Shown here: piece after piece, positions 217 through 14,358 of the stretch
Layout: each line of letters starts with the position of its first letter
How positions within the stretch are numbered: the stretch's first letter is position 1
Assembly (NCBI GenBank): GCA_013791775.1
Contig: VMTE01000020.1
Coordinates: 1 to 40,077 of the forward strand
Reading direction: 5' to 3'
DNA length: 40,077 nt
Source of the DNA: Hyphomonas sp.
Lineage (GTDB): Bacteria; Pseudomonadota; Alphaproteobacteria; Caulobacterales; Hyphomonadaceae
Program-made: the position numbers and the translations under genes
Notes under the pieces: model-generated
What the model saw: only the letters and a program-made list of their open reading frames with translations
What the model was told of the DNA's origin: nothing
Database searches by the model: none

Positions 217-774
217 ATGCATACGGTTGATGCAATTCACACACGCCGGTCGATCCGGTCCTACCAGCCCCGGCCGGTCGACCGGAGCGTCATCGAGGAA
301 ATCCTGTGGGATGCGGCCCAGGCCCCGACCCCGCCGGCCAGCGGCGACACGCCGTTTACCTTCGTTGTAATCGACGGCGCGGACCGGGTCGCGCTCTACG
401 GGTCCCAGGCCTTTGAACTGGCGCGCACCGCCCCGCAGTCCGGCTCCGCCAATGACTGGCTCGATCTCGACGAATTTTCCGTATTCTTCAACGCGCCCGT
501 GGTCATCGTGATTTGCGCCGAGCCGGACGAACGGGGCGAAGCCGTGCAGAATTGCAGTCGCGCAGGGCAGAACCTGATGCTCTCCGCCGAAGCACGCGGC
601 CTTGGCACCTGCTGGGTCGAAACCGCCCTGCCCTGGCTGCGCGAACCACAGACTGGGGCCGAACTGGGCATTCCGGATACCCTCACCCCGTTTGCCGCGT
701 TCACCCTCGGCCATCCGCAAGGCATGCCGGCCGGCAAGCCGCGTGAGCGCCCGCCGATCATCTGGACGCCCTAG
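217..774 (+). CDS. Nitroreductase family FMN-dependent oxidoreductase
   Basis: This is a 185-residue protein of the nitroreductase fold, which uses FMN and NAD(P)H to reduce nitro, quinone or similar substrates in the cytoplasm. The N-terminal R-R-S-I-R-S-Y motif (residues 10-16) is the usual FMN-phosphate-contacting segment. The region around residues 130-150 (LSAEARGLGTCW) is the conserved second FMN contact of the family, and the length is typical. I chose ATG 217, with GGGTGG just upstream, over the ATG at 160, because the homologous region begins at the RRSIR segment and the upstream residues look non-coding. The substrate cannot be inferred. It is monocistronic and faces a small leftward gene. 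Confidence 0.85.
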   Translation: MHTVDAIHTRRSIRSYQPRPVDRSVIEEILWDAAQAPTPPASGDTPFTFVVIDGADRVALYGSQAFELARTAPQSGSANDWLDLDEFSVFFNAPVVIVICAEPDERGEAVQNCSRAGQNLMLSAEARGLGTCWVETALPWLREPQTGAELGIPDTLTPFAAFTLGHPQGMPAGKPRERPPIIWTP

Positions 775-917
775 GAGTCACCCGGATTTGCAGGCGAACC
801 GGGCTCCGGCGCCTCCTTGCGGGCGGCCGCCTTCCGGCGCCGCAGATTGGCCCGCAATGCCTCGGCCCGGCGGGCATCGCGCTCGGCTTGTTCGGGGGTG
901 GGCGGCTTCTGGCTCAT
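771..917 (-). CDS. Small basic protein, 48 aa, function unknown
   Basis: This short leftward ORF starts at ATG 915-917 and encodes a protein rich in Ala, Arg, Glu and Pro. A charged helical stretch (E-R-D-A-R-R-A-E-A-L-R) is followed by R-R-R-K and a Pro/Gly tail. Its end overlaps the end of the nitroreductase by 4 bp in convergent orientation. The longer frame running back through the tRNA gene is not credible, because it would translate the tRNA. No function is recognised; the composition suggests a small soluble, possibly nucleic-acid-binding protein. Confidence 0.55.
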   Translation of the reverse strand: MSQKPPTPEQAERDARRAEALRANLRRRKAAARKEAPEPGSPANPGDS

Positions 918-985
918 CTTCAACGACAAAACGGTCTTTTCACAATGGAAGGCATAGGCTAAAGCCCCCGAACCGAACCGGCAAT

Positions 986-1060
986 GCCGCCTTAGCTCAG
1001 GGGTAGAGCGCATCATTGGTAATGATGAGGTCGACAGTTCAATTCTGTCAGGTGGCACCA
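986..1060 (+). tRNA. tRNA-Thr (anticodon GGT), CCA encoded
   Basis: A full cloverleaf can be drawn. The acceptor stem GCCGCCT pairs with AGGTGGC (one G-U), followed by discriminator A and an encoded CCA. The D-arm is TAGCTCAGGGGTAGAGC. The anticodon stem CATCA/TGATG closes the 7-nt loop TTGGTAA, with GGT as anticodon. The T-arm contains GTTCAATTC. The last 45 nt, from the anticodon loop to CCA, are duplicated at 11064-11108, so the gene is the integration target of the neighbouring element and its 3' part may derive from that element's attP. Confidence 0.95.
1016..1060 (+). repeat. attL: 45-bp direct repeat within tRNA-Thr 3' half
   Basis: Identical over 45 nt to 11064-11108, beginning in the anticodon loop (TTGGT) and ending with the CCA triplet. 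The flanking bases differ on both sides. Tyrosine integrases of the P4 type commonly use the anticodon-loop to T-arm region of tRNA genes, so the crossover probably lies near the start of this repeat. Confidence 0.95.
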
Positions 1061-1124
1061 CTTTCTCTCTTTGAATCAGAGGAATGGCTGTCGGTCGTTC
1101 GTTCGCGCTTGGGAACCGAGTGAC

Positions 1125-1145
1125 CGGGGTAACGCTCGGGGTAAC
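1125..1145 (+). repeat. Two tandem CGGGGTAAC motifs near attL, possible integrase arm sites
   Basis: CGGGGTAAC occurs at 1125-1133 and again at 1137-1145, in a non-coding stretch 65-85 bp inside attL. The core GGGGTAAC recurs at 10946-10953, about 110 bp inside attR and directly upstream of the integrase start. Repeated short motifs near both ends of an element are the usual layout of integrase arm-type or excisionase sites. The function is inferred from position only. Confidence 0.4.
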
Positions 1146-1217
1146 CACGTCAGTTCAGAAACGCGACTTCCAGGGTAGGCGGAATCGCTGCAACTAAAAA
1201 GCATTGAGCGATCATTT

Positions 1218-1254
1218 GTAACGTCTAGCGGTGACAAGAAATCACCGACGTTAC
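1218..1254. other. Strong bulged hairpin upstream of the CBASS operon
   Basis: GTAACGT (1218-1224) pairs with ACGTTAC (1248-1254), and CGGTGA (1229-1234) pairs with TCACCG (1242-1247). The loop is 7 nt, and four unpaired bases (CTAG) bulge on the left side. The 13 paired bases lie 64-100 bp before the cap5 start. No T-run follows, so it is not a classic intrinsic terminator. It could be an RNA structure in the leader or a protein-binding dyad. Confidence 0.5.
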
Positions 1255-1282
1255 CGCAAGGACTTGTATTCCGGATCGGCAC

Positions 1283-1299
1283 CACCACATCATGTGGTG
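1283..1299. promoter_or_regulatory. 17-bp palindrome, candidate operator of the CBASS operon
   Basis: CACCACAT (1283-1290), one central base, then ATGTGGTG (1292-1299): a perfect 8-bp dyad just before the ribosome binding site of cap5. Palindromes of this size at a promoter/leader often bind dimeric repressors. No CapW- or CapH-type regulator gene lies in the operon, so the binding protein, if any, is unknown. Confidence 0.4.
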
Positions 1300-1317
1300 T
1301 TTCCGTAAGGATAAGCT

Positions 1318-2517
1318 GTGGGCGTCGTATCTGAATCGACTGATCTGGACGGGCCACCGTTCGAAAACGTCCGGCCCGGGCGCAAGTTGAAGCCATATTT
1401 ACAAACAGTCATTTGGTCCCGCTCTGCCGGTCGCTGCGCTCTTTGCAACAAGGACGTCACTGAAAGCGAGTTGACTCTTCGTCCAGGAACCAAGGCGGAA
1501 AAAGCGCATATAGTCGCTTACTCTAAAGGTGGTCAGCGGGGCTCTGAAAGTGACCGCCCTTCTGACATCAACGCCATCGAAAACTTGATACTGCTTTGCC
1601 AGCCATGTCATGCCGATATTGACGCGCCAGGTAACGGTTTCACGTCCAAACAGTTGAGGCAAATAAAGAACGATCACGAAGGACGAATCCGGCGCCTCGC
1701 CGAACTCTCGCCGGAGAACAAGTCTCATGTGATTGCGTTCACCTCGCCAATAGGCTCGCTAGCGGTGTCTATTCAAAAGGGTCATGCCTTTCAGGCCATG
1801 CTTCCTCGATATCCCATAGATCGGGAATGGACGTTTATTGATCTGACAGGAAACACGGGCCAAGCTGAAACGGCTGATTTTCTACAGGTAGCAAAAGAGC
1901 GCATCAAACGGGAAATTAGAATCGCTTCTGACGCGCATGGCCCGGTTCAAAGGGCACAGCACATTTCGTTGTTCGCAATTGGCCCAATTCCTCAACTCAT
2001 CTACTTGGGGACAAGGCTTTCAGACAAATTACCCCTCGACGTATTTCAACGCCATCGAGCGCCGGAAACATGGGCATGGAAATCACCTGAAGATCATCCT
2101 CCCGTTGCGTACGAGTTTCGCACCCTCAAAAGTGCAGGACCAAGCGCACCTCCAGCTCTGATATTGTCTTTGAGCGGACGAATTCACATCGGAGACTTGC
2201 CCGTCAGCATCCAGACGTCACATGCGATCTACGAGCTGACTCTGAAGGACGCCACTCCCACGCCAACATTCTTGAACGCCAAAAGAGACGCCGACGCCTT
2301 CCGAAATGCTTATCACGACGCACAATCATTCATTGCTGACGTGCACGGCAACGGAAATCCGCTTTCCTTGTTTCCAGCCGTTCCTGCTCCTCTTGCGGTC
2401 CTAATCGGACGGGAACGATTGCGGAAAATTCGCTTCGCATTCGATGTCTATGAGAATGACAAAGCCAAAGGTGGCTTCACTAAACAGCTGGAGATAAGCA
2501 ACGATGACACCGACTGA
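1318..2517 (+). CDS. cap5: CBASS effector Cap5: HNH endonuclease fused to SAVED domain
   Basis: The 399-residue protein reads as an HNH nuclease (about residues 25-125) joined to a SAVED sensor (about 190-395), the architecture of the CBASS effector Cap5. It shows C40-x-x-C43 and C94-x-x-C97 as a zinc knuckle, with the HNH catalytic set H64 (in AHIVAYS), N89 and H98. The SAVED part contains SLFAIGPIPQLIYLGTRL (217-234), a recognisable core of the domain. In the family, a cyclic dinucleotide made by the partner cyclase binds SAVED, drives oligomerisation and turns on non-specific dsDNA cleavage that kills the infected cell. The start is GTG 1318, with AAGGA at 1307-1311. The 3' end overlaps the CD-NTase gene by 14 nt, so the two are translationally linked. 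Confidence 0.93.
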   Translation: MGVVSESTDLDGPPFENVRPGRKLKPYLQTVIWSRSAGRCALCNKDVTESELTLRPGTKAEKAHIVAYSKGGQRGSESDRPSDINAIENLILLCQPCHADIDAPGNGFTSKQLRQIKNDHEGRIRRLAELSPENKSHVIAFTSPIGSLAVSIQKGHAFQAMLPRYPIDREWTFIDLTGNTGQAETADFLQVAKERIKREIRIASDAHGPVQRAQHISLFAIGPIPQLIYLGTRLSDKLPLDVFQRHRAPETWAWKSPEDHPPVAYEFRTLKSAGPSAPPALILSLSGRIHIGDLPVSIQTSHAIYELTLKDATPTPTFLNAKRDADAFRNAYHDAQSFIADVHGNGNPLSLFPAVPAPLAVLIGRERLRKIRFAFDVYENDKAKGGFTKQLEISNDDTD

Positions 2518-3397
2518 ACAATTGCGTGAAGTGCTCAAGCAACAATCGATCGATCCTGAAGGCCCCGAAATCGCAGAAATGGCGATGCACAAGCAAGCTA
2601 TCGAGCGCATATTGTATGACTCATTTGGTAGCACGAACCTGACGATTCGATATGCGGGTTCGCGTGCAAAGCATACCATGATCAAGGCCGAATACGATCT
2701 CGATATCGTTGCTTACTTCAATCATGATTCAACGATTGCTGGTCGAACCTTAAAGGAAATCTACTGGAACGTCAGCAATGCTTTGCGCGATAGCTATGAA
2801 GTGACGCCAAACCGATCTTCGCTTCGCTTGTTTAGCGCTGCATTCTCCCGCGCCCAGTATCCGCTTCAGATAGATGTGGTTCCAGGCAAGTTTCAGAACA
2901 ACGAGAACTATGATTGCTCCCTTCATCAAACCACCGGAGACAAAGACTGGCTCAAGACGAACCTTGAGACTCACATCGACTGGATCCGACAAAGCAACGC
3001 CCGAGAAGCATTGAAACTGATGAAGATAGCACGTGTTACACAAGGTTTGCTGATCAGGCAATTTCCTCTCGATCTCATCGTAATTCGTGTGCTTAGGGAC
3101 AAACAACACCTTCCATTGGCCGACCAATTCGTACACGTACTAACGGAAATATCCACATCCACCGTGCCCATACGGGTATATGATCCAGCAAATTCTGAAA
3201 ACGATCTTTCGGGGCTAACCGCCGGTCCCGTCTGGACAGACCTCGCATTGGCCTGCTCGCGAATGCTATTGGCGAACAGAAGCCAAGACTGGCTGTCCAT
3301 TTTGGGTGACCCGTCCAAGTTCGCCCCATCATCTCCCGCAATCATTCGAGCTGAAACGGACCGAACTGTTGCACCGATCAAACCCTGGGCCCGCTAA
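2504..3397 (+). CDS. CBASS cyclic-oligonucleotide synthase (CD-NTase, probably CdnG-like)
   Basis: The 297-residue protein is a cGAS/DncV-like nucleotidyltransferase. It has the G52-S53 motif followed by D65-x-D67 (in EYDLDIVAYF) and the third metal-binding aspartate D124 (in QIDVVPG). A later RVYDPANSENDLS segment (224-236) is the conserved C-lobe motif of the OAS-like fold. It would make a cyclic di- or trinucleotide on phage infection. Pairing with Cap5 fits the CdnG clade, such as the Asticcacaulis CdnG-Cap5 pair that uses 3',2'-cGAMP, but the product here is inferred. The start ATG lies inside the cap5 end, with GGAG ten bases upstream. The C-terminus is IKPWAR, not the terminal glycine of many E1/E2-primed CD-NTases. 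Confidence 0.93.
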   Translation: MTPTEQLREVLKQQSIDPEGPEIAEMAMHKQAIERILYDSFGSTNLTIRYAGSRAKHTMIKAEYDLDIVAYFNHDSTIAGRTLKEIYWNVSNALRDSYEVTPNRSSLRLFSAAFSRAQYPLQIDVVPGKFQNNENYDCSLHQTTGDKDWLKTNLETHIDWIRQSNAREALKLMKIARVTQGLLIRQFPLDLIVIRVLRDKQHLPLADQFVHVLTEISTSTVPIRVYDPANSENDLSGLTAGPVWTDLALACSRMLLANRSQDWLSILGDPSKFAPSSPAIIRAETDRTVAPIKPWAR

Positions 3398-4043
3398 AGA
3401 AGAAGCTGAACCGTGGTGGATACGCCGTGGTGATCTGGTCGAAAGCGTGGAGGTCACGATTGCGACGAGTTTTCCTTTGTTGCGCGTTATCCACACACCC
3501 TATGGACCATTGATCCGTGGTCGGATTTTGGTTCTCGGTACACCATTTTCTATAGAAATTCAGTTCCCTCCTGATTACGACGATTTCCCTATCCCGGCGG
3601 TATGGGAAACAGGCGGAAGAATCGAGCGGACGCTCGACCGGCACATAAACCGGGATGGTACCGCATGTACGTGCGTGCCCGAAGAGTGGCTTGCAAAAAC
3701 TGCACAGCCGACCTTTGAGGCATTTATGTCTGGCCCGTTGTACACCTTCTTTCTTGGACAAGTGCATTTTGAAGAGTTCAAAACTTTTCCTTGGGGCGAG
3801 AGGCAACACGGTATCGTTGGGCTCTATGAATCGTATGCAGAAATGCTCGGCACAAAGATTGACGCCGCTGAAATCTCAGCAACTTTGCTGATCCTGACGA
3901 AGACAGATATCAAGGGCCATTTTGAGTGTCCTTGCGGTTCCTCAAAGCGCCTTCGCGCCTGTTGCCGGTCAAGAATTGAAGAACTGAAGAGTAGATTGCC
4001 AGCAAAGTTGGTCGCGCGCATGTATTCCAAGGTGACGCTTTAG
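3306..4043 (+). CDS. CBASS E2-like conjugation protein with C-terminal SEC-C zinc motif (type II-short)
   Basis: Residues about 36-165 (counted from GTG 3306) look like a ubiquitin-conjugating-enzyme (E2) fold. EIQFPPDYDDFPIPAVW is followed by RHINRDGTACTC, which aligns with the E2 H..N..G..C active-site segment; C121 or C123 is the likely catalytic cysteine. The tail carries CPCGSSKRLRACC (C208, C210, C219, C220), a SEC-C zinc motif. Type II-short CBASS operons encode a lone E2 that primes the cyclase without an E1, which fits this third position. No ATG start exists. GTG 3306 overlaps the cyclase by 92 nt, and TTG 3369 (29-nt overlap) is an equally likely start. There is no JAB protease gene. 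Confidence 0.85.
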   Translation: MTRPSSPHHLPQSFELKRTELLHRSNPGPAKEEAEPWWIRRGDLVESVEVTIATSFPLLRVIHTPYGPLIRGRILVLGTPFSIEIQFPPDYDDFPIPAVWETGGRIERTLDRHINRDGTACTCVPEEWLAKTAQPTFEAFMSGPLYTFFLGQVHFEEFKTFPWGERQHGIVGLYESYAEMLGTKIDAAEISATLLILTKTDIKGHFECPCGSSKRLRACCRSRIEELKSRLPAKLVARMYSKVTL

Positions 4044-4072
4044 AAGCGCATGGCAACAGAATTGATGCAAAA

Positions 4073-4105
4073 CCCGCCCCCGGATGATGCGTTCCCGGGG
4101 GCGGG
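4073..4105. terminator. GC-rich hairpin between convergent CBASS and capsid genes
   Basis: CCCGCCCCCGG (4073-4083) pairs perfectly with CCGGGGGCGGG (4095-4105) across an 11-nt loop. It sits 30 bp past the E2 stop and 34 bp past the capsid stop. Read leftward, the stem is followed by TTTT, so it works best as an intrinsic terminator for the capsid gene and may block read-through from CBASS as well. Confidence 0.8.
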
Positions 4106-4139
4106 CAAGTCGATTGGGAAGAAAAGAAGCCCAGGCCAC

Positions 4140-5504
4140 CTAGGTTGCGGGCAGGTTCACAACCTTGCAGAAGCGATTCGGACGCACGGCGAACGAGTCG
4201 ACGCGAGCGTAGCCGCGCGCCTGCCAACCAAGTTTCTTGAAGCTGTCGCCGGACGTACGAGAGATTTCCAGCACCAGGCGTTGCCTGAACACCGCATAGA
4301 GCGACGCCCATTCGCCAGTGACGGCGCTCGCCGTGAAGGGAGATGCATCGGTCACGTCGACTTGGTTCGTGTCCAGCATCATACGATCACGCAGCGACGG
4401 CGGCGGCTGTAACGGCTGACCTGTCGTATCGGCGAGCCGGTCGATATGACCGAGGGTCGACGGCGACAGGATGAACACACCGGGTTCAACGTTCTGTTGG
4501 CGCACCTTCTGAACGGCCCGCGCAAACGGATCGTAGTCGGCAAGCACTCCAACCGCGTCGACTTGCTGAATGTCAGCGTGGTTTAGAATGCCAAGCGGCT
4601 GACCAATTCCATTGCCTGCAAGCGCAGCATAATCGACCTGTTCGGCAATTTGGGTGCCGATGGTCGTCATCAGGAAGTCGCCAAGCGTCGGCGAATCTTC
4701 GAGCAGTTCGATTGATCCTTCAACCCGTACCGCCACTGTGTACGGCTTGAATGTGCGGAGCCCGAACGCCGCTGAGCTTAGGTTGATATCCGCCAGCTCG
4801 CCGCGCCAATGCGCTACTGGGTCACGTTCAAGGGTCGGGAAGGACATCGTCCCGCCCTGCGGTGCGTCGATAATCGTGGCCCCCGCTTGCGCGATTCGCA
4901 TCTTTGCGCGGGCCAAGTCGACAACACCTCCCCAAAGTGCATCAGGTACCAGGAAGCCGCCCGCGCCGCCGCTATTGAGCAGCTGCGACGATTGAGGCGA
5001 CAGCCGCGAATGATCGCCGGTGAGAGCAGCCTTCACAACATCGCCGAGATTGTCACGCGATCTGCCGTATACGTCGGCTGCGCTGTCACCAGGACGAAGC
5101 ACAAGCGGTTCGCCGTCGCGGTGAGAGCTAAACCCGCTCGTGCCACGCTGCGAGCGTGCAAGGGCACGCGGGTCGACTCGCGTTTCTTCCATGCGGGTTC
5201 GGGCCGCTTGAATTGCATCTTCGCGGCTTTGACGCATCGCCATCCGGTCGTGATGGGGCGACTCGCGTTCGCCGCGCGCTTCGCGCGTGTCGATTTCATC
5301 CGAAATTAGATTGATGGCTTCACACATCGCATTGAAAGCCGCGCCAGCTGCATCGCTGTCGCTTTTCACGTTGTCCGCAGCCTTGCGAAGCTTCTTGCGC
5401 CGCTCGTGCAGTTCGGCCCAAGACGCGGCGAGCACGTCGGGCTTCACGTCAGAAGCCGACACACCGACCTTCGTCAGCTCCGCCAAGGTTTCATTGTTGA
5501 ACAT
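4140..5504 (-). CDS. HK97-fold phage major capsid protein
   Basis: The 454-residue protein has a charged, helical N-terminal part (about 1-120, with a likely coiled coil at 25-75) resembling the scaffolding delta domain of HK97-type capsid proteins. A typical HK97 shell domain follows from about residue 150. Recognisable pieces include GGFLVPDALWGGVVDLAR, then AAPQ/DAPQGGT and the Q-V-D-x-A-L-L-like segment IAEQVDYAALAGNGIGQPLGIL. It would assemble icosahedral shells. I chose ATG 5502-5504 because GAAGGAAA lies just upstream; a longer frame back to 5678 adds a low-complexity proline/arginine segment without support. No portal, terminase or prohead protease gene adjoins it, which is unusual for a phage module. 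Confidence 0.9.
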   Translation of the reverse strand: MFNNETLAELTKVGVSASDVKPDVLAASWAELHERRKKLRKAADNVKSDSDAAGAAFNAMCEAINLISDEIDTREARGERESPHHDRMAMRQSREDAIQAARTRMEETRVDPRALARSQRGTSGFSSHRDGEPLVLRPGDSAADVYGRSRDNLGDVVKAALTGDHSRLSPQSSQLLNSGGAGGFLVPDALWGGVVDLARAKMRIAQAGATIIDAPQGGTMSFPTLERDPVAHWRGELADINLSSAAFGLRTFKPYTVAVRVEGSIELLEDSPTLGDFLMTTIGTQIAEQVDYAALAGNGIGQPLGILNHADIQQVDAVGVLADYDPFARAVQKVRQQNVEPGVFILSPSTLGHIDRLADTTGQPLQPPPSLRDRMMLDTNQVDVTDASPFTASAVTGEWASLYAVFRQRLVLEISRTSGDSFKKLGWQARGYARVDSFAVRPNRFCKVVNLPAT

Positions 5505-5889
5505 AGTTGTTTCCTTCGGTTTGAACGTGCGCGCACGCAGCGTCGTCACGCCCGATTGGGGTTGAGGGGGGGGTGATCCGTCGCGGTCGCGTGGCGAACC
5601 GAAGGGCGATGCGGGCACCCGTGGGGCACTCCGCATACAGACAAGATAAAACTGTGAGGCGAATATCTCAACGCGCACTAGGCGGCAAAACAGGTGCTTT
5701 AGTTAGACTTAGGCAGCAAATCTAACATTTAGGGGGGGAAAATCGCCTTGCGGATTTTTTTCCTATTGTTCCGCCGGTATGGGTAATCGAGTTTTCTAGA
5801 CTTTTCACCCCCCCCCTACCCAGACGCTCCGCACACCAGTAGTTATTCACTTGGTCCCTGATCTTCAGGCGGTCGCTTTGGAGTTCCAG
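5505..5889. other. 385-bp divergent intergenic region with poly-G/poly-C tracts
   Basis: No gene is supported here. It must hold the promoters of the leftward capsid gene and the rightward protease gene. It contains G8 at 5566-5573, G7 at 5732-5738 and C9 at 5808-5816. GGGGGGGAAAA near 5732 and TTTTCACCCC near 5801 form an imperfect inverted pair about 65 bp apart. A smaller dyad is GTTAGA (5702-5707) with TCTAAC (5721-5726). The segment 5690-5810 is much more AT-rich than the rest of the window. Confidence 0.6.
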
Positions 5890-6732
5890 ATGTCCGTCAT
5901 AACTTCACCGATCTCATTGTGTACCGTTCGCGTCGAGATGCTCTTCAATGACACGTTGCTGGCTACAGGATCGAGCTTCTTCTATGACTACAAAGGCCGA
6001 TCATTTCTCGTGACCAACCGGCACAATGTAACGGGCTGTGACCAGAATACCGGTAAGCCTCTGGACGTAACGCGTGGAGGAATTCCCAACAGTATTCGGT
6101 TCAAAGTGCCCGTCGCTGAAAAATCTGGGAACTCGTTCAGAATCGGAAGCGCACACGTGCTCTCGCATCTAAAGTGGGAAGAGGATGATCGGCCTTGGCT
6201 GGAGCATCCTCAACTTGGTGCTTCGGCGGATGTCGTTGCTTTCGACATCGCGCATCATTGGCCGAAGTTCGGCAAGCCGGTTTTCCACGCCAACACATTG
6301 CCAAACTACGTGCCTCTCTCCCTCAAGCCCGCGTTGAGTGTATCGGTCGTAGGCTATCCATTTGGTCAAGCCGTGAATGAGTTTTACCCGGTGTGGGTTT
6401 CTGGGTCGCTAGCTTCAGAGCCTTCATTCAATGCTGATGGAAAACCGGCACTATTTATTGATTGCAGAACGAATAGAGGCTCATCTGGGTCACCCGTCTT
6501 CGCCTACGTTGCTGGCGGTCTCGCGCAGACCGAGAACGACAAGCTAACTTCTAGCGAGCACGGGATATTTATGCAGTACACTCATACTGATGGAACTCAT
6601 TGGGGCATGTTTGGAGCGCCAGCACAGAGGTTCATTGGAATCTATAGCGGTCGAATAAACGACAAGGCGGACATTGGTTTGGTTTGGAGAACGGAAGTCA
6701 TCGAAGCCGTTTGCAGCACCTGCGACCAATGA
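5890..6732 (+). CDS. Trypsin-like serine protease, stand-alone
   Basis: The 280-residue protein has the chymotrypsin-fold triad. H45 lies in LVTNRHNV, the likely aspartate is D114 in SADVVAFDI, and S199 lies in the nucleophile motif NRGSSGSPVF. There is no signal peptide or membrane segment, so it should act in the cytoplasm. I prefer ATG 5890, with GGAG seven bases upstream, to TTG 5851. Such trypsin-like domains occur in bacterial defence islands as proteolytic effectors, and its place beside a capsid gene also allows a role in capsid processing; the sequence does not decide between them. It is transcribed away from the capsid gene and towards the helicase operon. Confidence 0.8.
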   Translation: MSVITSPISLCTVRVEMLFNDTLLATGSSFFYDYKGRSFLVTNRHNVTGCDQNTGKPLDVTRGGIPNSIRFKVPVAEKSGNSFRIGSAHVLSHLKWEEDDRPWLEHPQLGASADVVAFDIAHHWPKFGKPVFHANTLPNYVPLSLKPALSVSVVGYPFGQAVNEFYPVWVSGSLASEPSFNADGKPALFIDCRTNRGSSGSPVFAYVAGGLAQTENDKLTSSEHGIFMQYTHTDGTHWGMFGAPAQRFIGIYSGRINDKADIGLVWRTEVIEAVCSTCDQ

Positions 6733-6820
6733 TCTGATCACGATCATTCGCGCGCGCCTCGCTAACAGCGCTTCGTCATCGTCAAGGCGCCGAAGGTCTG
6801 CGGGTCACGCAAGTCATGCA

Positions 6821-6871
6821 TTCCCCGACCCAAGAGAAGTTTACAAAAGAAAATATATACTAGGTCGGGAA
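6821..6871. other. Imperfect inverted repeat around an AT-rich loop between convergent genes
   Basis: TTCCCCGACC (6821-6830) pairs with GGTCGGGAA (6863-6871), with one bulged C. The 32-nt loop between them is strikingly AT-rich (TTTACAAAAGAAAATATATAC). It lies in the gap between the protease stop and the helicase stop. It may be a weak bidirectional terminator or part of a replication origin for the element's helicase. Confidence 0.4.
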
Positions 6872-6936
6872 TTGCCGGACATGCCTGACAATTTGACGTA
6901 CGCGGCCTTAGGGCTTTGACGCGACGATGAAGCCCC

Positions 6937-8220
6937 CTATTCGCCCGCGCGTTTGAACCTGATACCTGAATACGCGCGCGCGCCGTCACGTCGAACCGCC
7001 GCCACGCCTGAATGTCCGTATGCCGATATGATCTCGCGCCCAAACCACTCGCGAGAGAGCGACCGTCTGACACCCTCGCTGTCACACCAGCTATTGAAGT
7101 GCTGAAACAAGAGGTCTTTGGGCACCGTCGCGTCAGCCTCAAGCGTGCAAGCATCCTGCACAAAAGCTCGTACCACATTCGAAAGTCGGTCCATGCTCAT
7201 AACCAAGTCATTCGAACTGGCCGGTTGGGCGATCTCGCCCGCGACGCTGAGTTTACGCCAGCCTTCTATGGCCCAGTTCAAAATACCTGGCAGCTCTGCC
7301 CGAACGGCCTGATCCAGTCCCCTATTCTCGCGTCCGACAAAACTCTTGCGCATGTTCAGCACTCGGTACCGGGCAATCAGTGCCGAAGAGGAGTCGTGAA
7401 AGGTTGGGGGTTCGTTCCCCATGATGACGATCACGCAACCGAGGCGCCCTTGCCAGTCTTCCATGAACTTTCTTTGGACGCTCACATGGTCTTCGCCGCT
7501 GATCCTGAGAAGCGTTTCAGTAATCCGGGATTTCGGCGAGCGCTTGTCCAAGCGCGCGTCGCTGATAAGCGCAAGGCGCTTTCCGATAAGCGGCTGCAAG
7601 CCGAAAGATTCGCCGAACGAATCGAGCGTCGGCGCAGCCCAGTTTCCAGCGCCGATCAACTCGACCAATGCGCGCCCTATGGTGCCCTTCCCGCTTCGCG
7701 GCGGGCCCACGATCACCGGAATGACCTGAAGGTCGGTTCGCGGACTGATCAGATAGCCGAAGATGAGTTGCAGCGTCTCGCGGCAGTCTGCTTCGTCCGG
7801 CCATATACCGTGAAGGAATTCCAACCAGCGCGGCGCAGTCGCCGACGCGTCGAAATCAAAGGGCAGCGCGGTAACTGAAAACACGCGGGCGTCGTGTGCG
7901 TATAGTTGGGACGTCGTGAGGTCGAGGATTCCGTTTCGAAGCACAATAAGGTTCGCCGGGTCCAGGGCCACCGGCTCTAAGAGTGACGGCGGTGCGAACG
8001 AGAGCCGGTCGACAAATACGCGCGACTTCAAGGCGTCAATAAATCTGTCGACCTTCGATTTTGTATTTGCCGATGATCGAAGGTACACGTCAGCCCGCAT
8101 GGCTTCCATATCGACGGCCCGATAGACGCCGCCTTCGTAGCTGTAGAAATCGCCATTCCATCTGACCAGCCGCCCGCCGCGCCGCGCAAGGTAGCCGTCA
8201 ACGTCTTCGAAGGCTGTCAT
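6937..8220 (-). CDS. P4/D5-like superfamily 3 replicative helicase
   Basis: The 427-residue protein belongs to the phage/plasmid primase-helicase group. A D5_N-like region (about 1-160) precedes an SF3 ATPase with Walker A GPPRSGKGT (172-180), Walker B LALISD (216-221) and the sensor-type motif C IMGNEPP (266-272). A winged-helix-like DNA-binding tail follows from about residue 340. No N-terminal primase (TOPRIM or AEP) domain is present, so priming must come from elsewhere. In P4-like satellites and plasmids this protein drives replication of the excised circle. Its start overlaps the preceding gene by ATGA, placing it last in the alpA operon. Confidence 0.88.
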   Translation of the reverse strand: MTAFEDVDGYLARRGGRLVRWNGDFYSYEGGVYRAVDMEAMRADVYLRSSANTKSKVDRFIDALKSRVFVDRLSFAPPSLLEPVALDPANLIVLRNGILDLTTSQLYAHDARVFSVTALPFDFDASATAPRWLEFLHGIWPDEADCRETLQLIFGYLISPRTDLQVIPVIVGPPRSGKGTIGRALVELIGAGNWAAPTLDSFGESFGLQPLIGKRLALISDARLDKRSPKSRITETLLRISGEDHVSVQRKFMEDWQGRLGCVIVIMGNEPPTFHDSSSALIARYRVLNMRKSFVGRENRGLDQAVRAELPGILNWAIEGWRKLSVAGEIAQPASSNDLVMSMDRLSNVVRAFVQDACTLEADATVPKDLLFQHFNSWCDSEGVRRSLSREWFGREIISAYGHSGVAAVRRDGARAYSGIRFKRAGE

Positions 8221-8555
8221 GACGGCACGGAGAGTCCGCGCTTGCGGAGTTCGTCGCGCACAGCATCAATGTCTCGTAACTCTTGCAACAACTGCGCAGC
8301 ACGTTGATTGACCGTCTTGTGGTAGCCGTCGCTCGCATCATCTTCACGTTCCGCCGACTTGAATAGCTCCAGAAATTCCGGTTCGGGCAATTGCCGAACA
8401 AACTTCAACGCGGCTTGAACCTCGCGTTCAACATGGGGAACGTTGCCCGCGCTCCACGATTCGAATCGGCGCAGCATTTCGGTGTTGATATTCGTAAGGT
8501 CGCGGTTCCAGAGGCCCCCTTTCACCGTAAGAAGCGTATTTGCATCGATAAACAT
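8217..8555 (-). CDS. Hypothetical protein, 112 aa, in replication operon
   Basis: No family is recognised. The protein is soluble and mostly helical, with charged Glu/Arg-rich stretches (PEPEFLELFKSAERE, then LLQELRDIDAVRDELRKR) at residues about 55-108. Its stop overlaps the helicase start by four bases (ATGA), and its own start lies one base after the preceding stop (TGA-C-ATG). It is therefore translated as part of the replication unit. A helicase accessory or loader role is possible from position alone. Confidence 0.7.
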   Translation of the reverse strand: MFIDANTLLTVKGGLWNRDLTNINTEMLRRFESWSAGNVPHVEREVQAALKFVRQLPEPEFLELFKSAEREDDASDGYHKTVNQRAAQLLQELRDIDAVRDELRKRGLSVPS

Positions 8556-8556
8556 G

Positions 8557-8907
8557 TCAGTTCACCCTTCCAGCGGCCCGCCGCTGCTGTTCGGCTTGGA
8601 ACGCTTGAAGCATGCTGGTCGAGTTGAGTGTCATTGCCGCCTCTTCGTCGACTGAAAGCGCGCCGCCGCTGCTTTCACGTAACCACGCATCTTGAACGAT
8701 TGACCGATGTTCAGACGATACCAGCTTCGAAGCCCGCTCAAGGGCCGCGCGTGCATCGGGAAATCGGTTCAAGCGTCCAAGCCGGTTATGCACGTCGGCT
8801 GCGACGCATATCAACGTGGCTTCCAAGTCGGAGTTCGGGATTTCGGCGAGTGACTCGCCGGATTGAATTCTGTTGATTGTCTCGACGTACAAGTGCGCGA
8901 TATTCAT
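8557..8907 (-). CDS. Hypothetical protein, 116 aa, in replication operon
   Basis: The product begins MNIAHLYVETI and is a helical, soluble protein with no recognised domain. I chose the ATG at 8905-8907 because it overlaps the alpA stop by four bases (ATGA), the coupling seen along this operon; the longer frame back to 8967 would run through alpA. The C-terminus is Gln/Arg-rich (FQAEQQRRAAGR). Function unknown; its place between alpA and the helicase suggests element replication or regulation. Confidence 0.7.
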   Translation of the reverse strand: MNIAHLYVETINRIQSGESLAEIPNSDLEATLICVAADVHNRLGRLNRFPDARAALERASKLVSSEHRSIVQDAWLRESSGGALSVDEEAAMTLNSTSMLQAFQAEQQRRAAGRVN

Positions 8908-9110
8908 CGATTGTGCTCTTTGTGCTGACTGATTGCATCGCGCTCGGACACCCGACCCGCGATCCACGCTTCAATCTCGCTCTTGAGGTAGCCAATGCGA
9001 CGCACACCGAGCTTCACCGGGTGGGGAAACTGACCGCGTTGACGGCGGCGCCATAGTTCTTGGCGGGAAAGGCCAACGACTCTGGTAACTTCGGTTTGGG
9101 TCAAAAGCAT
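8904..9110 (-). CDS. AlpA-like MerR/HTH regulator or excisionase
   Basis: The 68-residue protein carries the AlpA pattern: an N-terminal helix-turn-helix (TEVTRVVGLSRQELWRRR, residues 6-23), then a wing with FPHPVKLG and IGYLKSEIEAWI. AlpA family proteins in P4-like and CP4-57-like elements control integrase expression or act as excision factors. I chose the ATG at 9108-9110, which has GGAG seven bases upstream. It heads the four-gene unit alpA-orf116-orf112-helicase, so it may be the switch between the quiescent and replicating states. Confidence 0.88.
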   Translation of the reverse strand: MLLTQTEVTRVVGLSRQELWRRRQRGQFPHPVKLGVRRIGYLKSEIEAWIAGRVSERDAISQHKEHNR

Positions 9111-9199
9111 TGTGCGGCTCCACGAGACAGCGTGAGCACTCAACTTGATGCGTAGGCTGACCTTCGTAAACGCAAAGGATTTAGCGTGACGCGGTAAGT

Positions 9200-9652
9200 C
9201 TAATTTTTCTTCGACAGCTCTTTTAGAGCAGCGGCGGTTTCTTCATGTTTCGGGCCGCTCAATAGACGCTCCAATCCGCGAACAATGTAGGCCTTGGCTT
9301 CAGTTTGATTTGCAAGCTTAGTTGCTTCCCGAAGTTTGTAGCTGCGCTTTAGATTGCCCGTTTGAGAAAGGTAAACTTCTGCGGCGGCTACGCACCGGTC
9401 ATCGGTCCATTCTCGCGCTTTCTGACTGAGCTGATTCATGCTCTTGGCCGCTTCGGCCCGGTCGGCGTTAGCAATAGCTGCTTCCAGCTCGGCTGTGCGA
9501 GCGGCCAAATCCCATTCACTCATTCCAGGTGCGGACGTCAGACGACTAGCGTATCGCTTAAACCATACTCGCGCCAATTGCGCCTCATACGCCCGATTGG
9601 CGGGGTCAAGAGCGATCTGAATCTTGCCAGCGTCGTCTAACCAAGCTTGCAT
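9200..9652 (-). CDS. Hypothetical protein, 150 aa, between integrase and alpA
   Basis: This is a mostly alpha-helical, charged, soluble protein with no recognised family. Repeating Ala/Glu/Lys patterns (TAELEAAIANADRAEAAKS) suggest a helical bundle or coiled coil in the middle. I chose ATG 9650-9652, with AGAGG eight bases upstream; a TTG at 9691 would add 13 residues but lacks a Shine-Dalgarno sequence. It is transcribed with the integrase on the same strand, with 50-90 bp gaps on each side. Confidence 0.65.
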   Translation of the reverse strand: MQAWLDDAGKIQIALDPANRAYEAQLARVWFKRYASRLTSAPGMSEWDLAARTAELEAAIANADRAEAAKSMNQLSQKAREWTDDRCVAAAEVYLSQTGNLKRSYKLREATKLANQTEAKAYIVRGLERLLSGPKHEETAAALKELSKKN

Positions 9653-9703
9653 TGCAGGAGCCTCTAGTGGGTTAATTCTCCCCTCTCGCAAGAATTGTGC
9701 CGA

Positions 9704-10942
9704 TCAGGGACTTTCGTCCATGATCCGTCCCAAGGCTGCTGACCACATCTCCAGTGCTGCCCTTTTTTCCTTTCCATAATCGAACCGGTTATAAATTGCC
9801 GCGACCCCCGAAATGCGTCCGCTGGAATGGTTTAACACCGCTTCCACGACATGCGGCGGCACGCCCTCGCGCGCCATGCCCGTCGCCGCAGTTCGCCTCA
9901 AATCATGAATTGTCCAATTCGGTAGTTCGGCGAGTTGAGATGATTTTCGAAGGTGTTCCAGCATAAGCGCATCTAGACGACGCTTGATCCGCGTGAAGCC
10001 CGAAGCCGTCCCTATGCCGCCGCGATCTGCCGGGAAAAGGAAATTGCTCTTTCCCTTCGAGGAAAGAGTTGAAACTATTTCATGGGCGCGCCGCGAGAGG
10101 GGAACATGGTGCGAGCGGCTGTTCTTCACGCGCTCCTTAGGTAGCGTCCAAGCGCGCTCTTGCAGGTCGATCTCAGACCATACAGCCCCGGCCACTTCAC
10201 CGCGCCGTTGACCAGTCAAGATGAGTAGCTCGAACATCGAAGCCCACGGGTCGCCAAGTTCATGTAGAACCGCGAAGAAAGCTCGAATTTCCTGATCACT
10301 GAGAACACGGTCGCGCGAATTGATTGGAGCGGCGCAGCGAATTCCGTCTGCAGGCGACGCCGCTAAAACGCCCTGCTCCACGGTCCAGCGAAAGAACTTC
10401 TGGACGCAAGCCATCGTTCGCCGGTGCTTGCCTTCTAGCACTCTGATCAAGTCGCGACGCGTTACGTCTCTGATCAAGTATGGTCCCAGCGGCCTTACCA
10501 AGGCTTGGTTCAATGAGTGTTCGGCAGCTTTCCAGGTACGGTTTCTCGGCTTTTGCCAATTCTCGATATACCTAGCGGCCAGCGCGCGAACGGTTTCAGC
10601 CTGGTCAATTTTCGCTCTTTGCTTCTGACCCGCCAGGTCGATCCCCTGTGCGGCTTTAGACACCGTATCGCTTGCTGCGAGGCGCGCATCCTTGAGCGTG
10701 ATGGCTGGGTACTTGCCTAGCGTGAGCTTTCGCTGCCGCCCTGAAACACGATATCGGACAGCCCACGATTTCGCGCCGGTGGGAAAGACGACAAGGCGCA
10801 GCGGCGACCTGCCATCACTGATTTCGTAACGCTGAGCCCTTGGTTTGGCCGCGTCGATTTCAGCGGCTGTTAGCCGCCTGATTCCACCGCTTCGATATTC
10901 CGCGTCCGCCAACAGAAAGCCCTTTGCTTTGGCTCGGGTCAC
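9704..10942 (-). CDS. int: P4-type tyrosine site-specific integrase
   Basis: The 412-residue protein has an N-terminal arm-DNA-binding DUF4102-like domain (about 15-105: SPLRLVVFPTGAKSWAVRYR, KLTLGKYPAITLKDAR), a core-binding domain (about 115-205) and a catalytic domain. The active-site residues are R246 (TGQRRGEV), K273, H346-x-x-R349 (HDLRR), H372 (LNHS) and the nucleophile Y384 (AAIYNRF). It would integrate and excise the element at the tRNA-Thr 3' end. The only plausible start is GTG 10942, which has no strong Shine-Dalgarno sequence. The gene lies beside attR, at the end farthest from the intact tRNA, and reads into the element. Confidence 0.95.
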   Translation of the reverse strand: MTRAKAKGFLLADAEYRSGGIRRLTAAEIDAAKPRAQRYEISDGRSPLRLVVFPTGAKSWAVRYRVSGRQRKLTLGKYPAITLKDARLAASDTVSKAAQGIDLAGQKQRAKIDQAETVRALAARYIENWQKPRNRTWKAAEHSLNQALVRPLGPYLIRDVTRRDLIRVLEGKHRRTMACVQKFFRWTVEQGVLAASPADGIRCAAPINSRDRVLSDQEIRAFFAVLHELGDPWASMFELLILTGQRRGEVAGAVWSEIDLQERAWTLPKERVKNSRSHHVPLSRRAHEIVSTLSSKGKSNFLFPADRGGIGTASGFTRIKRRLDALMLEHLRKSSQLAELPNWTIHDLRRTAATGMAREGVPPHVVEAVLNHSSGRISGVAAIYNRFDYGKEKRAALEMWSAALGRIMDESP

Positions 10943-10945
10943 ACG

Positions 10946-10953
10946 GGGGTAAC
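10946..10953 (+). repeat. GGGGTAAC motif near attR
   Basis: The third copy of the 8-bp motif that is tandemly repeated at 1126-1133 and 1138-1145 near attL. Here it lies immediately upstream of the integrase start codon, so a protein bound there could affect both recombination and int transcription. This is positional inference. Confidence 0.35.
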
Positions 10954-11063
10954 AAAAAACTGCTGACTGCCTGAGATAACCCGCAACCGACCGAGACCGT
11001 ACAGCACTGTATTATTTAGCTTTATACATCATTCGGCCCATCAAATACAGACGTAAAATCCCT

Positions 11064-11108
11064 TTGGTAATGATGAGGTCGACAGTTCAATTCTGTCAGG
11101 TGGCACCA
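11064..11108 (+). repeat. attR: 45-bp copy of the tRNA-Thr 3' part
   Basis: Identical to 1016-1060, but without the 5' half of the tRNA, so it is not a gene. To its right host DNA resumes, with the end of glpK 41 bp away. It marks the right boundary of the integrated element. Confidence 0.95.
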
Positions 11109-11148
11109 TCCGGCTCCGGTCCGGCCCCGCACGTTCTGGCGCCCGGCC

Positions 11149-12627
<1,479 letters not shown>

Positions 12628-12631
12628 GGGG

Positions 12632-12997
12632 TCAGGCTTTCATCTGGGCGGGGTCGTAGAAAAACGTCTCGGACTCAATCCGGTCTCCGCGCCAGGTTTG
12701 CCAGGCGACTTCTTCCAGAACCCGCTCACCGCCGCCTTTCGGATAAAAGGTAAAGCGCCAGCGAATGACGACGGTATCGCCTGACACGAGGGGTTCTGCC
12801 AGCAGCTGCGTCTCGACGCGCATCATGCGGTCGAGCGTCGCCTGTTCCTGGGCGACAAGTGTGTCTCGTCCCCGCCGGGGCGGAGCCTGGTTCTCCTGCA
12901 TCGAGGCGTCCGGCGTGTACCAGTCGCAGATCGCGCCGGCATGATCGCCGCTGAGCACCTGCGCCGTGAAGCGCTGGACCGTTTCTATTGCAGGCAT
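12632..12997 (-). CDS. NTF2-like (SnoaL-type) protein
   Basis: The 121-residue protein shows the cone-shaped NTF2-like pattern: an N-terminal helix with IETVQRFTAQVLSGD, then a DWYTPDASMQENQAP segment, and beta strands ending in GDRIESETFFYDP. These are typical of SnoaL-like polyketide cyclase or ketosteroid-isomerase-like proteins. It has no signal peptide. It lies four bases upstream of glpK on the same strand. Its substrate is unknown, and many such proteins have no assigned reaction. Confidence 0.75.
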   Translation of the reverse strand: MPAIETVQRFTAQVLSGDHAGAICDWYTPDASMQENQAPPRRGRDTLVAQEQATLDRMMRVETQLLAEPLVSGDTVVIRWRFTFYPKGGGERVLEEVAWQTWRGDRIESETFFYDPAQMKA

Positions 12998-13042
12998 GCC
13001 GCCTCCCGTTTCCGGGAATTCCTAGCACGCTTCAGGAAAGGC

Positions 13043-13510
13043 TCAACGCACCTCGCGCCGGTTTCCCCTGTCCCCAAACCACCAGAGCGTTGCCGCCGTG
13101 GCGGCGAAGGTGGCCGTTTCCACGATGCTGGCTTTCGCGTCTGCCGCCGCGTTGAAATAGACCAGCGACATGATCAGCCACAGCAGCAGCGTCAGGAGCG
13201 GACGGGTCAGCGCCCGCACCGCATTCACCCATCTGTAGCTGCTTTCAATCGAGGCTTCCGCCTCCATCGACGCCGCGAGCCCCCGCCAGGCTCCCGCCGT
13301 CTCTGCCAGATGCGCCTGCCCCTCCGCCGCCGAGGCTTGTGCGCGCATCTGAAGTTCAGCCAACGCCGTTTCGTGCATCCAGCGCGCCCGCTCTTGCGCG
13401 TTTTCCTGCCGGCGTTCCACTACCCCCGCGATCCGCCCGATCACGGTGCCCGCCAGGCCGAACACGCCGCCCCCCGCAGCGCTCGCCGCCAATCCGATTA
13501 TATCTGCCAT
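13043..13510 (-). CDS. Three-TM holin of the gene-transfer-agent release type
   Basis: The 155-residue protein has a hydrophobic, Gly/Ala-rich N-terminal helix (1-29), a charged amphipathic middle (30-90) and two clear membrane segments (about 101-119 and 129-146). The stretch VNAVRALTRPLLTLLLWL and the ending TLWWFGDRG match what I know of the GTA_holin_3TM family. Holins make the inner-membrane lesion that lets an endolysin reach the wall. Its start overlaps the M15 peptidase stop by 13 nt, so the pair forms a lysis cassette. The family call is from pattern memory, not a search. Confidence 0.7.
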   Translation of the reverse strand: MADIIGLAASAAGGGVFGLAGTVIGRIAGVVERRQENAQERARWMHETALAELQMRAQASAAEGQAHLAETAGAWRGLAASMEAEASIESSYRWVNAVRALTRPLLTLLLWLIMSLVYFNAAADAKASIVETATFAATAATLWWFGDRGNRREVR

Positions 13511-13887
13511 GACGCGTCCGCCCCCTTGTAGGTCCAGGTGGCGGGAGACATCCGCCGGTCGAGGTGAATGAATGTCCGCCCACGGCCTATGCCGGTGAAC
13601 CCGCTGTCGATGGCCGCGTTGAGAAAGGCGTGCCGGTCGTGACCGGACAGTGAAATGTCGGCGGCGATGCGCCGGTGGCGCGATTCCGGCGCGCCGCCCA
13701 CGAGGACATTGCGCACCCCGCAGCGATGCCCGGAATTGATCTTCAGGGGCCGGCCCACCCGTCCGCGCAACGCTTCGAGCGCATCGATGAATTTCGGATC
13801 GTGCCAGTATTCACCCCGGCACCCGCGCGAGCGGCACTTGCAGGCCAGCTCCACGGGATGGAAATGCGGCCAGGCCCAACCGGCCAT
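13498..13887 (-). CDS. Peptidase M15-type D-Ala-D-Ala carboxypeptidase/endolysin
   Basis: The 129-residue zinc peptidase has NSGHRC (residues 51-56), SRHRRIAADI with H71 and D77, and FIHLD with H108, the H..D..H ligand set of family M15. The N-terminal CKCRSRGCRGEYW may bind a structural metal. There is no signal peptide, as is usual for a holin-dependent phage-type endolysin. I chose the ATG at 13885-13887, with AAGGA seven bases upstream, over the ATG at 13917. It is followed by an overlapping holin-like gene. It would cleave peptide cross-links in peptidoglycan. Confidence 0.82.
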   Translation of the reverse strand: MAGWAWPHFHPVELACKCRSRGCRGEYWHDPKFIDALEALRGRVGRPLKINSGHRCGVRNVLVGGAPESRHRRIAADISLSGHDRHAFLNAAIDSGFTGIGRGRTFIHLDRRMSPATWTYKGADASWQI

Positions 13888-14084
13888 CGAAAAGTCCTTG
13901 TACGAAGCAATCAGCATCCGGTGAGTATGCGCCCGGTCCGGATCCAGCCGGATTCGCAGCGCGCGGAAAAATGGCTGATCTCGGTTGCCGGAACCGTTGC
14001 GGCGTACGCAAGTGGCTCAATTTGTTGTAAAAAATACAAGGCACTTCAGCGAAAGAAAATTTCGGGCTGGCGGCGAAACCGCTC

Positions 14085-14122
14085 AAAACTGTTGCGCAAG
14101 CAGAAACTTGCGCGACAGTTTT
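14085..14122. terminator. Long hairpin with A/T ends, likely bidirectional terminator
   Basis: AAAACTGTTGCGCAAG (14085-14100) pairs with CTTGCGCGACAGTTTT (14107-14122) through a 6-nt loop, with one G-U wobble. The stem ends in AAAA/TTTT, giving a short T-run in both directions. It could end the leftward nitronate monooxygenase transcript, whose stop is 236 bp away. Confidence 0.6.
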
Positions 14123-14295
14123 CGGGATGTGACGGAACTTTTCAGCATCGCCACGCTCTCTCCCTGCCGCTCATCCCGGCGGATGCCGGGACCCAGACTT
14201 GCGCGCCGCAGCAAGGCAAATGCTCTGGACCCCGTCTGTCGACAGAGTGAGCGACGCGGAGAGATTGTGTGGGAACGGAAGGGTCGCGAGATGGG

Positions 14296-14323
14296 CCCTC
14301 TGATGGCCTTCGGCCATCGAGGG
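14296..14323. repeat. GATGGCC-ttc-GGCCATC hairpin, probable dispersed repeat end
   Basis: CCCTC-T-GATGGCC (14296-14308) pairs with GGCCATC-GAGGG (14312-14323), with a single bulged T and a 3-nt loop. It sits 36 bp after the nitronate monooxygenase stop and could also act in transcription termination. Confidence 0.5.
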
Positions 14324-14358
14324 TAACGATGTTGAGAGCGCGGGAAAGCGGTGACAGC

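Follow-up and report, generated by a model that had tools for sequence, protein, structure and literature searches.

The integrated element and its genes

The stretch analyzed here (positions 1-40,077 of contig VMTE01000020.1 of Hyphomonas sp., assembly GCA_013791775.1; hereafter, the window, 40,077 nucleotides) carries at positions 1016-11108 an element of 10,048 bp, measured from start to start of a flanking 45-bp direct repeat. The element, located in a tRNA-Thr gene, encodes an HK97-fold major capsid protein (MCP) as its only recognized virion protein and a three-gene cyclic-oligonucleotide-based anti-phage signaling system (CBASS). The initial annotation described a satellite-like element with a perfect attachment (att) repeat, an integrase, AlpA, a superfamily 3 (SF3) helicase, an HK97 capsid gene and a CBASS lying inside the element boundaries; family matches were obtained for each of these genes, the repeat proved exact and the operon lies between its copies. 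The trypsin-like gene and the open reading frames (ORFs) at 8217-8555, 8557-8907 and 9200-9652 are additions to that list. The features are as follows.

986..1060, plus strand: tRNA-Thr (ggt), integration target (ARAGORN)
1016..1060: left att repeat, 45 bp, 3' end of tRNA-Thr; exact repeat
1318..2517, plus strand: HNH-SAVED nuclease, CBASS effector (Cap5-like); Pfam SAVED 4.6e-33, HNH_2 3e-5; PADLOC Effector 9.9e-112; PDB 7rwk 9.5e-40
2504..3397, plus strand: CBASS CD-NTase (SMODS); Pfam SMODS 4.7e-7, PADLOC Cyclase 1.9e-59
3306..4043, plus strand: E2-like CBASS protein with SEC-C-like tail, start codon uncertain; PADLOC E2 1.2e-50, SEC-C below cut-off
4140..5504, minus strand: HK97-fold MCP, 454 aa; Pfam Phage_capsid 3.3e-31 (profile positions 1-278 of 280), NCBIfam major_cap_HK97 3e-39
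5505..5889: intergenic stretch between the MCP and trypsin-like genes; its three G/C runs (7-9 bases) are the only runs of at least 7 in the window
5890..6732, plus strand: trypsin-like peptidase, probable second cargo gene; Pfam Trypsin_2 8.7e-7, PADLOC PDC-S45 9.6e-20
6937..8220, minus strand: SF3 helicase of the D5/P4 family, 427 aa; NCBIfam primase_Cterm 1.4e-49, 168.6 bits (cut-off 108.7); D5_N
8217..8555, minus strand: 112-aa protein; ORF, no family above cut-off
8557..8907, minus strand: 116-aa protein; ORF, no family match
8904..9110, minus strand: AlpA-type excisionase/regulator; PHROG 66 'excisionase and transcriptional regulator', 6.5e-12
9200..9652, minus strand: 150-aa protein beside the integrase; ORF, no match above cut-off
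9704..10942, minus strand: tyrosine integrase, Arm-DNA-bind_3 domain and Phage_integrase; Pfam 2.7e-24 and 6.4e-20
11064..11108: right att repeat, 45 bp; exact repeat

The minus strand, read from the right end, holds the integrase, the 150-aa ORF, the AlpA-type regulator (we take the PHROG 66 family to correspond to AlpA), two small ORFs, the helicase and the MCP gene, while the plus strand holds the CBASS genes at the left end and the trypsin-like gene between those of the MCP and the helicase. The called genes account for 88% of the element, and the remaining ORFs (at least 40 aa, with less than 40% overlap with called genes) reach 106 aa at most. The element has a GC content of 55% against 65.5% for the window DNA beyond it; by unit, the values are 51% for the CBASS, 52% for the trypsin-like gene, 61% for the MCP, 59% for the helicase and 57% for the integrase.

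The empty site was sought with window positions 601-1060, which matched in all 42 genus genomes (own included), and 30 loci, the own one and those of 29 relatives, were examined. Element DNA was absent by blastn from the examined stretch of the 29 relatives, which mostly extended 1.5 kb past the tRNA gene. In one of them (L041, genome G066) tRNA-Thr is followed directly by glpK, as in the joined flanks of the window (75% identity over 1,791 columns); five more (L024, L036-L039) match glpK 0.8-1.4 kb downstream of the site, and glpK was not seen within the examined stretch of the other 23. The locus thus holds an integrative element in a tRNA gene, bounded by att repeats and with an empty site in relatives, as the initial annotation had anticipated.

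Apart from the MCP, Pfam, PHROG and NCBIfam scans of the element gave no match to a portal, head protease, terminase, connector or tail family. Neither terminase subunit nor a packaging HNH protein was among the matches, the sole HNH domain being the one fused to SAVED. The trypsin-like gene was considered as a head protease and rejected, as it is divergent from the MCP gene, has the low GC content of the CBASS and matches a defence-candidate family.

A small integrated satellite with an integrase, a replication protein and its own HK97-fold MCP resembles capsid-forming phage-inducible chromosomal islands (cf-PICIs), which are described, in the portion of the account available, as encoding MCP, protease, portal, connectors, the large and small terminase subunits (TerL and TerS) and HNH (PMC10690885). 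Whereas cf-PICIs so described carry the full head and packaging set, only the MCP was found here; because the portal, head protease, terminase and connector families are missing from the matches and the leftover ORFs do not exceed 106 aa, the element falls outside the cf-PICI definition. The earlier designation as a capsid-encoding satellite therefore holds with respect to the MCP gene and does not extend to capsid formation in the published sense. AlpA-type regulators occur in P4-like satellites, of which the Psu, Sid and Delta genes are a further trait. No Psu, Sid or Delta family was among the matches of the scanned window proteins, and divergent versions could escape such scans. The element shares with P4-like satellites an integrase, a P4-family primase/helicase and defence cargo; P4, according to a source on these satellites, has no capsid and tail genes, whereas the window element has an MCP (PMC9122126). 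Small marine elements, as far as the accessible text on them goes, are without HK97 capsid genes and of a different kind (PMC12324425). Among the literature titles and abstract openings covered, with subscription journals thinly represented, no element with an MCP as sole virion gene plus a CBASS was encountered.

Relatives of the capsid protein

Relatives of the window MCP are few. At E<=1e-15 they were found in 7 of 398 genomes of the order (own included), at E<=1e-3 in 5 of 105 genomes of the family, and at E<=1e-25 in the own genome only among 385 genomes of the class. Single-protein pattern scans with the window MCP yielded no relative in GTDB contigs or IMG/VR, and viral scans with the MCPs of L020 and L017 (loci introduced below) likewise yielded none; a scan with alignment A2 returned three loci in genome contigs, one of them in G098, and one weak viral contig. 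In the phage collection, the window MCP matched 57 records, with 22.7-30.0% identity among the 20 matches listed; the L017 MCP matched one record (27.3%), that of L013 none, and those of L020, L021 and L018 matched 188, 165 and 190 records, respectively, at no more than 33% identity among the matches listed. The 68 plasmid records matched by the window MCP are all below 60% identity.

Eight relatives lie in integrase-carrying elements, each of them bordered on one side by a tRNA or tmRNA gene. Seven of these are delimited by a repeat of the tRNA or tmRNA end of 16-46 bp, which gives lengths of 7.0-11.0 kb, the repeats of 16-19 bp being weaker evidence of the ends. The regions were read by eye, and family scans were made on 22 chosen proteins; L075 and L076 derive from metagenome bins.

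L013: 11.0 kb, 19-bp repeat; MCP and tape measure
L017: 10.5 kb, 17-bp repeat; MCP and portal
L018: 8.8 kb, 45-bp repeat; MCP, tape measure and TerS
L019: 7.0 kb, 44-bp repeat; MCP only, the rest being replication, regulation and integrase genes (by eye)
L020: 10.0 kb, 46-bp repeat (95.7% identical); MCP, tape measure and two more tail-type genes
L021: 10.2 kb, 16-bp repeat; portal, MCP and TerL
L075: tRNA-Met, no repeat in the examined DNA; MCP and portal
L076: 8.6 kb, 26-bp repeat; MCP and TerS (1.6e-5)

The tape-measure-like genes (L013:5753-8113, L018:10541-12364, L020:6351-8471) matched PHROG tail families and no Pfam family; their products might determine how long a borrowed tail becomes. 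Just beyond the left end of the Eisenbacteria element L076 a second integrase-like ORF (4992-6314, by eye) suggests tandem elements at the tmRNA gene. By tblastn (E<=1e-3), AlpA and integrase of the window matched in L018 and L020, the integrase weakly in L019, and the three CBASS proteins in none of the eight; in L018, L020 and the window element the tRNA or tmRNA end lies opposite the integrase. Common to the eight elements and that of the window are the MCP clade described below, an integrase and a terminal tRNA or tmRNA gene; the replication and virion genes differ.

The helicase was tried as a marker of the element core and rejected; its relatives (7 of 398 genomes of the order, own included, and ten viral loci) include none with a tblastn match to the window MCP. 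No MCP was seen on reading the helicase-bearing loci L069 and L070. L070 (G173, positions 3242-14156) is a 10.9-kb element between 46-bp tRNA-Gly repeats, with a helicase 39% identical to that of the window and a terminase-like ORF (by eye), that is, a complementary subset of genes.

A tree of 38 MCPs was built with IQ-TREE, for which phage rows were picked from database matches and only pieces of the phage records were examined. Ten rows stand on one side of a branch with 100/99 support: the window, L013, L017, L018, L019, L020, L021, L075, L076 and plasmid pCD630 of Clostridioides difficile; in an earlier tree of 29 rows the same ten were grouped at 98/94. This clade consists of small elements only, nine integrated (eight of them measured at 7-11 kb) and the plasmid, and spans here one alphaproteobacterial order, a Bradyrhizobium and an Eisenbacteria metagenome bin and the Clostridioides plasmid. 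The other 28 rows comprise 20 of phage type (12 phage records, one IMG/VR contig, five family prophages, a gene transfer agent (GTA) and a Piscirickettsia plasmid with head genes), five cf-PICI-like elements, a second capsid element of the own genome, the look-alike L091 and one unannotated scaffold. Among the 37 labelled rows, three changes are needed between small-element and phage-type labels. No canonical cf-PICI MCP is included, and pCD630 and L091 sit on long branches. These groupings, which go beyond the initial annotation, suggest that the lineage of the lone MCP is confined, in this sample, to small mobile elements. The 7.9-kb pCD630, in which the MCP is the sole annotated head gene, resembles the window element in this respect and differs in being a non-integrated plasmid, with a less sure placement due to its long branch; the portions of two accounts of it at hand say nothing on packaging by its MCP (PMC6807378, PMC10993401).

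Other capsid genes of the family were surveyed with PF05065, which matched in 71 of 105 genomes. The 62 matches at E 2.6e-76 or better were taken as GTA-type by score, and the one read by eye (L100) looks like a GTA cluster. Four of the other 22 rows are in loci already examined (three in the own genome, one in G098), 15 rows in 14 regions were read by eye, and three (G023:C519 and two of G102) were left out of this reading. The 14 regions comprise five complete-looking prophages (L086-L090), five cf-PICI-like elements (L092-L096), L091 and three pieces beside GTA-like genes (L097-L099). The cf-PICI-like elements show TerL-, MCP- and portal-type genes, with an integrase in four of the five in the examined DNA; all were recognized by eye, L092 alone being also family-scanned. 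L091 (G023, positions 309-14749), 14.4 kb long with a 16-bp repeat at tRNA-Asn, encodes an integrase, an AlpA-type protein, a helicase-primase, an MCP and a head maturation protease (PHROG 53, 1.1e-61), with no portal or terminase seen. It is an independent look-alike; as its MCP falls outside the clade of ten, elements poor in head genes may have had more than one origin.

The own genome is without the strong GTA-type MCP match found in 62 of the 105 family genomes. Its second capsid element (G000:C34:14247-23561; L014, L015) is 9.3 kb long and flanked by 39-bp repeats that correspond to the 5' part of tRNA-Gly. It holds genes for integrase, helix-turn-helix protein, portal, protease, MCP and ATPase, with no terminase seen; Pfam identified the portal and the MCP, and the annotation is otherwise mostly by eye. 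In principle, it might provide the window element with portal and protease. PF04860 detected portals in the own genome only in this C34 element and in a GTA-like remnant (G000:C51:5085-7096, L119), where a GTA-type portal gene and a DnaJ-like ORF (by eye) are adjacent and no GTA capsid gene accompanies them. PF03354 and PF17289, the only terminase families sought, detected no terminase of a helper in the own genome.

The CBASS operon

HNH-SAVED effector, cyclase and E2-like protein are encoded in one operon, as in known HNH-SAVED CBASS with E2; with a CD-NTase and a cyclic-nucleotide-sensing effector side by side, the predicted system is a CBASS. The effector was recognized via solved HNH-SAVED structures. 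The cyclase had no PDB match at 1e-3 and also fell under the NCBIfam CBASS-cyclase cut-offs, and the E2-like protein had no Pfam E2 match, only SEC-C below cut-off, and weak PDB matches (best 0.024). In an alignment with two relatives (G019, G037), the nucleotidyltransferase, HNH and E2-cysteine positions are conserved, including the acidic residues after the GS motif of the cyclase and the cysteine in the DRHIN..AC..VPEEW block of the E2-like protein; we presume that these positions carry the usual meaning of such motifs. Family scans revealed no E1 domain and no peptidase beside the E2-like protein, so that the full Cap2 and Cap3 set is not represented. The cyclase ends in KPWAR, a C-terminus shared with the two aligned relatives, whereas in operons with full Cap2 and Cap3 the terminal residue is Gly/Ala, according to the part of the source available (PMC10097602).

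A related cyclase (E<=1e-15) occurs in 4 of 105 family genomes, own included. The other three operons (L082, L083, L084) have the same gene order as that of the window (effector and cyclase 42-46% identical, E2 35-38%) and adjoin ArdC-, ParB- and SSB-like genes in islands of the family that resemble integrative and conjugative elements (ICEs; both by eye). In all three, a 355-aa gene not present in the window comes next. Its lower GC content, together with these similarly arranged operons in ICE-like islands elsewhere in the family, makes cargo of different origin the best reading of the CBASS.

Shell protein, helper and alternative explanations

The explanation that we hold to be rather probable is that of a phage-satellite-like integrative element, which brings its own shell protein and receives portal, head protease, terminase and tail from a helper phage. 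Its core would be the minus-strand integrase, AlpA-type regulator, SF3 helicase and MCP, with the CBASS and the trypsin-like gene as plus-strand cargo. Upon helper infection the element would excise, a step to which the observed att sites and empty sites correspond, replicate by its own helicase and produce its HK97-fold shell protein, the gene of which is intact and constrained. With the remaining head, packaging and tail parts taken from the helper, the MCP would act as a shell swap, giving a head, probably small, sized for a genome of about 10 kb and diverting helper assembly. The CBASS would serve as abortive-infection cargo against phages that the element cannot use, a role modelled on the defence genes of P4-like satellites, which, in the available portion of the source, can favour the helper against other phages (PMC9122126).

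The points counted in favour are the boundaries and empty sites, the MCP clade, the subsets of virion genes in relatives, the GC contrast, the CBASS operons elsewhere and the constraint on the MCP. The latter comes from comparison with a broken MCP copy in the own genome (G000:C5:697-1275, L016; 82% identity over 193 residues): over 193 codons dN is 0.143, dS 1.378 and dN/dS 0.10 (NG86), which says only that the MCP appears to have been constrained over most of the divergence. The broken copy lies beside a DUF736-like ORF (by eye).

Several points weigh against this explanation. The dS of 1.378 is near saturation, and the compared copy is itself broken. Beyond the MCP, the eight relatives have little in common with the window element, the window helicase having no tblastn match (E<=1e-3) in any of them, and L021, within the clade, carries portal and TerL. 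The cf-PICI capsids are said, in the accessible part of the report, to form three clades within the phage capsid tree (PMC11389934); satellite-specific capsid clades thus have precedent, and the ten-row clade may be one of those three. The head of P4 (11.6 kb) is larger than its genome size predicts, so genome size alone does not give head size (PMC7762592, as available). Finally, this analysis of sequences revealed neither a helper nor a particle, an excision product or a packaging signal.

It is unlikely that the element is what remains of a larger capsid-forming satellite or prophage, with the MCP left over after the loss of portal, protease and terminase. The own genome does contain a broken MCP copy (on C5) and the richer C34 element with portal, protease (by eye) and MCP, and cf-PICI-like elements occur at five family loci; but the frames are intact, the att repeats exact, the coding density 88% and the dN/dS 0.10, and several other elements of the clade are likewise without most head genes. 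We consider quite improbable that the element moves by another route and that its MCP is an interference gene, co-assembling with the phage shell protein to spoil heads, or a decoy. Such a role would suit an element in which no packaging family was matched and PADLOC classes the two other non-core units as defence-type; yet no relaxase family is among the Pfam and NCBIfam matches of the window proteins, the MCP gene lies on the core strand, and in relatives the MCP is accompanied by portal, TerS or tape measure, a combination suggestive of particle assembly. A composite of unrelated insertions, with the CBASS block as a separate mobile unit in an older capsid element, is very improbable: the GC content of the CBASS (51% versus 57-61% for integrase, helicase and MCP) and the related operons in ICE-like islands would fit it, but the CBASS lies inside the att repeats, neither a second long repeat pair nor a second recombinase ORF was found within the element, and such a history, read as cargo uptake, agrees with the satellite explanation.

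More tentatively, the satellite-like element may belong to a separate kind of satellite, with an old shell lineage of its own and as little as one virion gene, which would borrow portal, protease, terminase and tail, build heads for 7-11-kb genomes, mostly with triangulation number T=3, and carry a CBASS that rides along without blocking its spread; this is a possibility that we rather doubt. Known satellites, to our knowledge, either alter the size of the helper shell or carry a complete set of head and packaging genes; if the proposal is true, the shell and packaging parts of one particle could come from different genomes. The elements would then also be candidates for small T=3 HK97-fold heads. 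In the available portion of a size model, genomes of 8.1-17.1 kb (mean 11.8 kb) correspond to T=3, the absence of a T=3 HK97-fold head is called puzzling, T=3 is predicted for four isolated phages, and nine MCP-bearing gut contigs of 7.3-8.5 kb are mentioned (PMC7762592); given these phages and contigs, small MCP-bearing genomes are not new. The wider lead is the shell-protein lineage restricted, in this sample, to small elements.

Capsid-type triggers are known for CBASS, and an element which combines a capsid gene with an immune system must not trigger its own system. A phage capsid protein activates one bacterial immune system, according to the part of the report at hand (PMC9712102).

The three G/C runs of the 385-bp MCP-trypsin intergenic stretch lie at 5566-5573, 5732-5738 and 5808-5816, and none of 20,000 single-base shuffles gave three. 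As a common signal they were rejected: a run of at least 7 is held by 5 of 12 other elements, in one of which (L019) it lies no more than 400 bases before the MCP gene.

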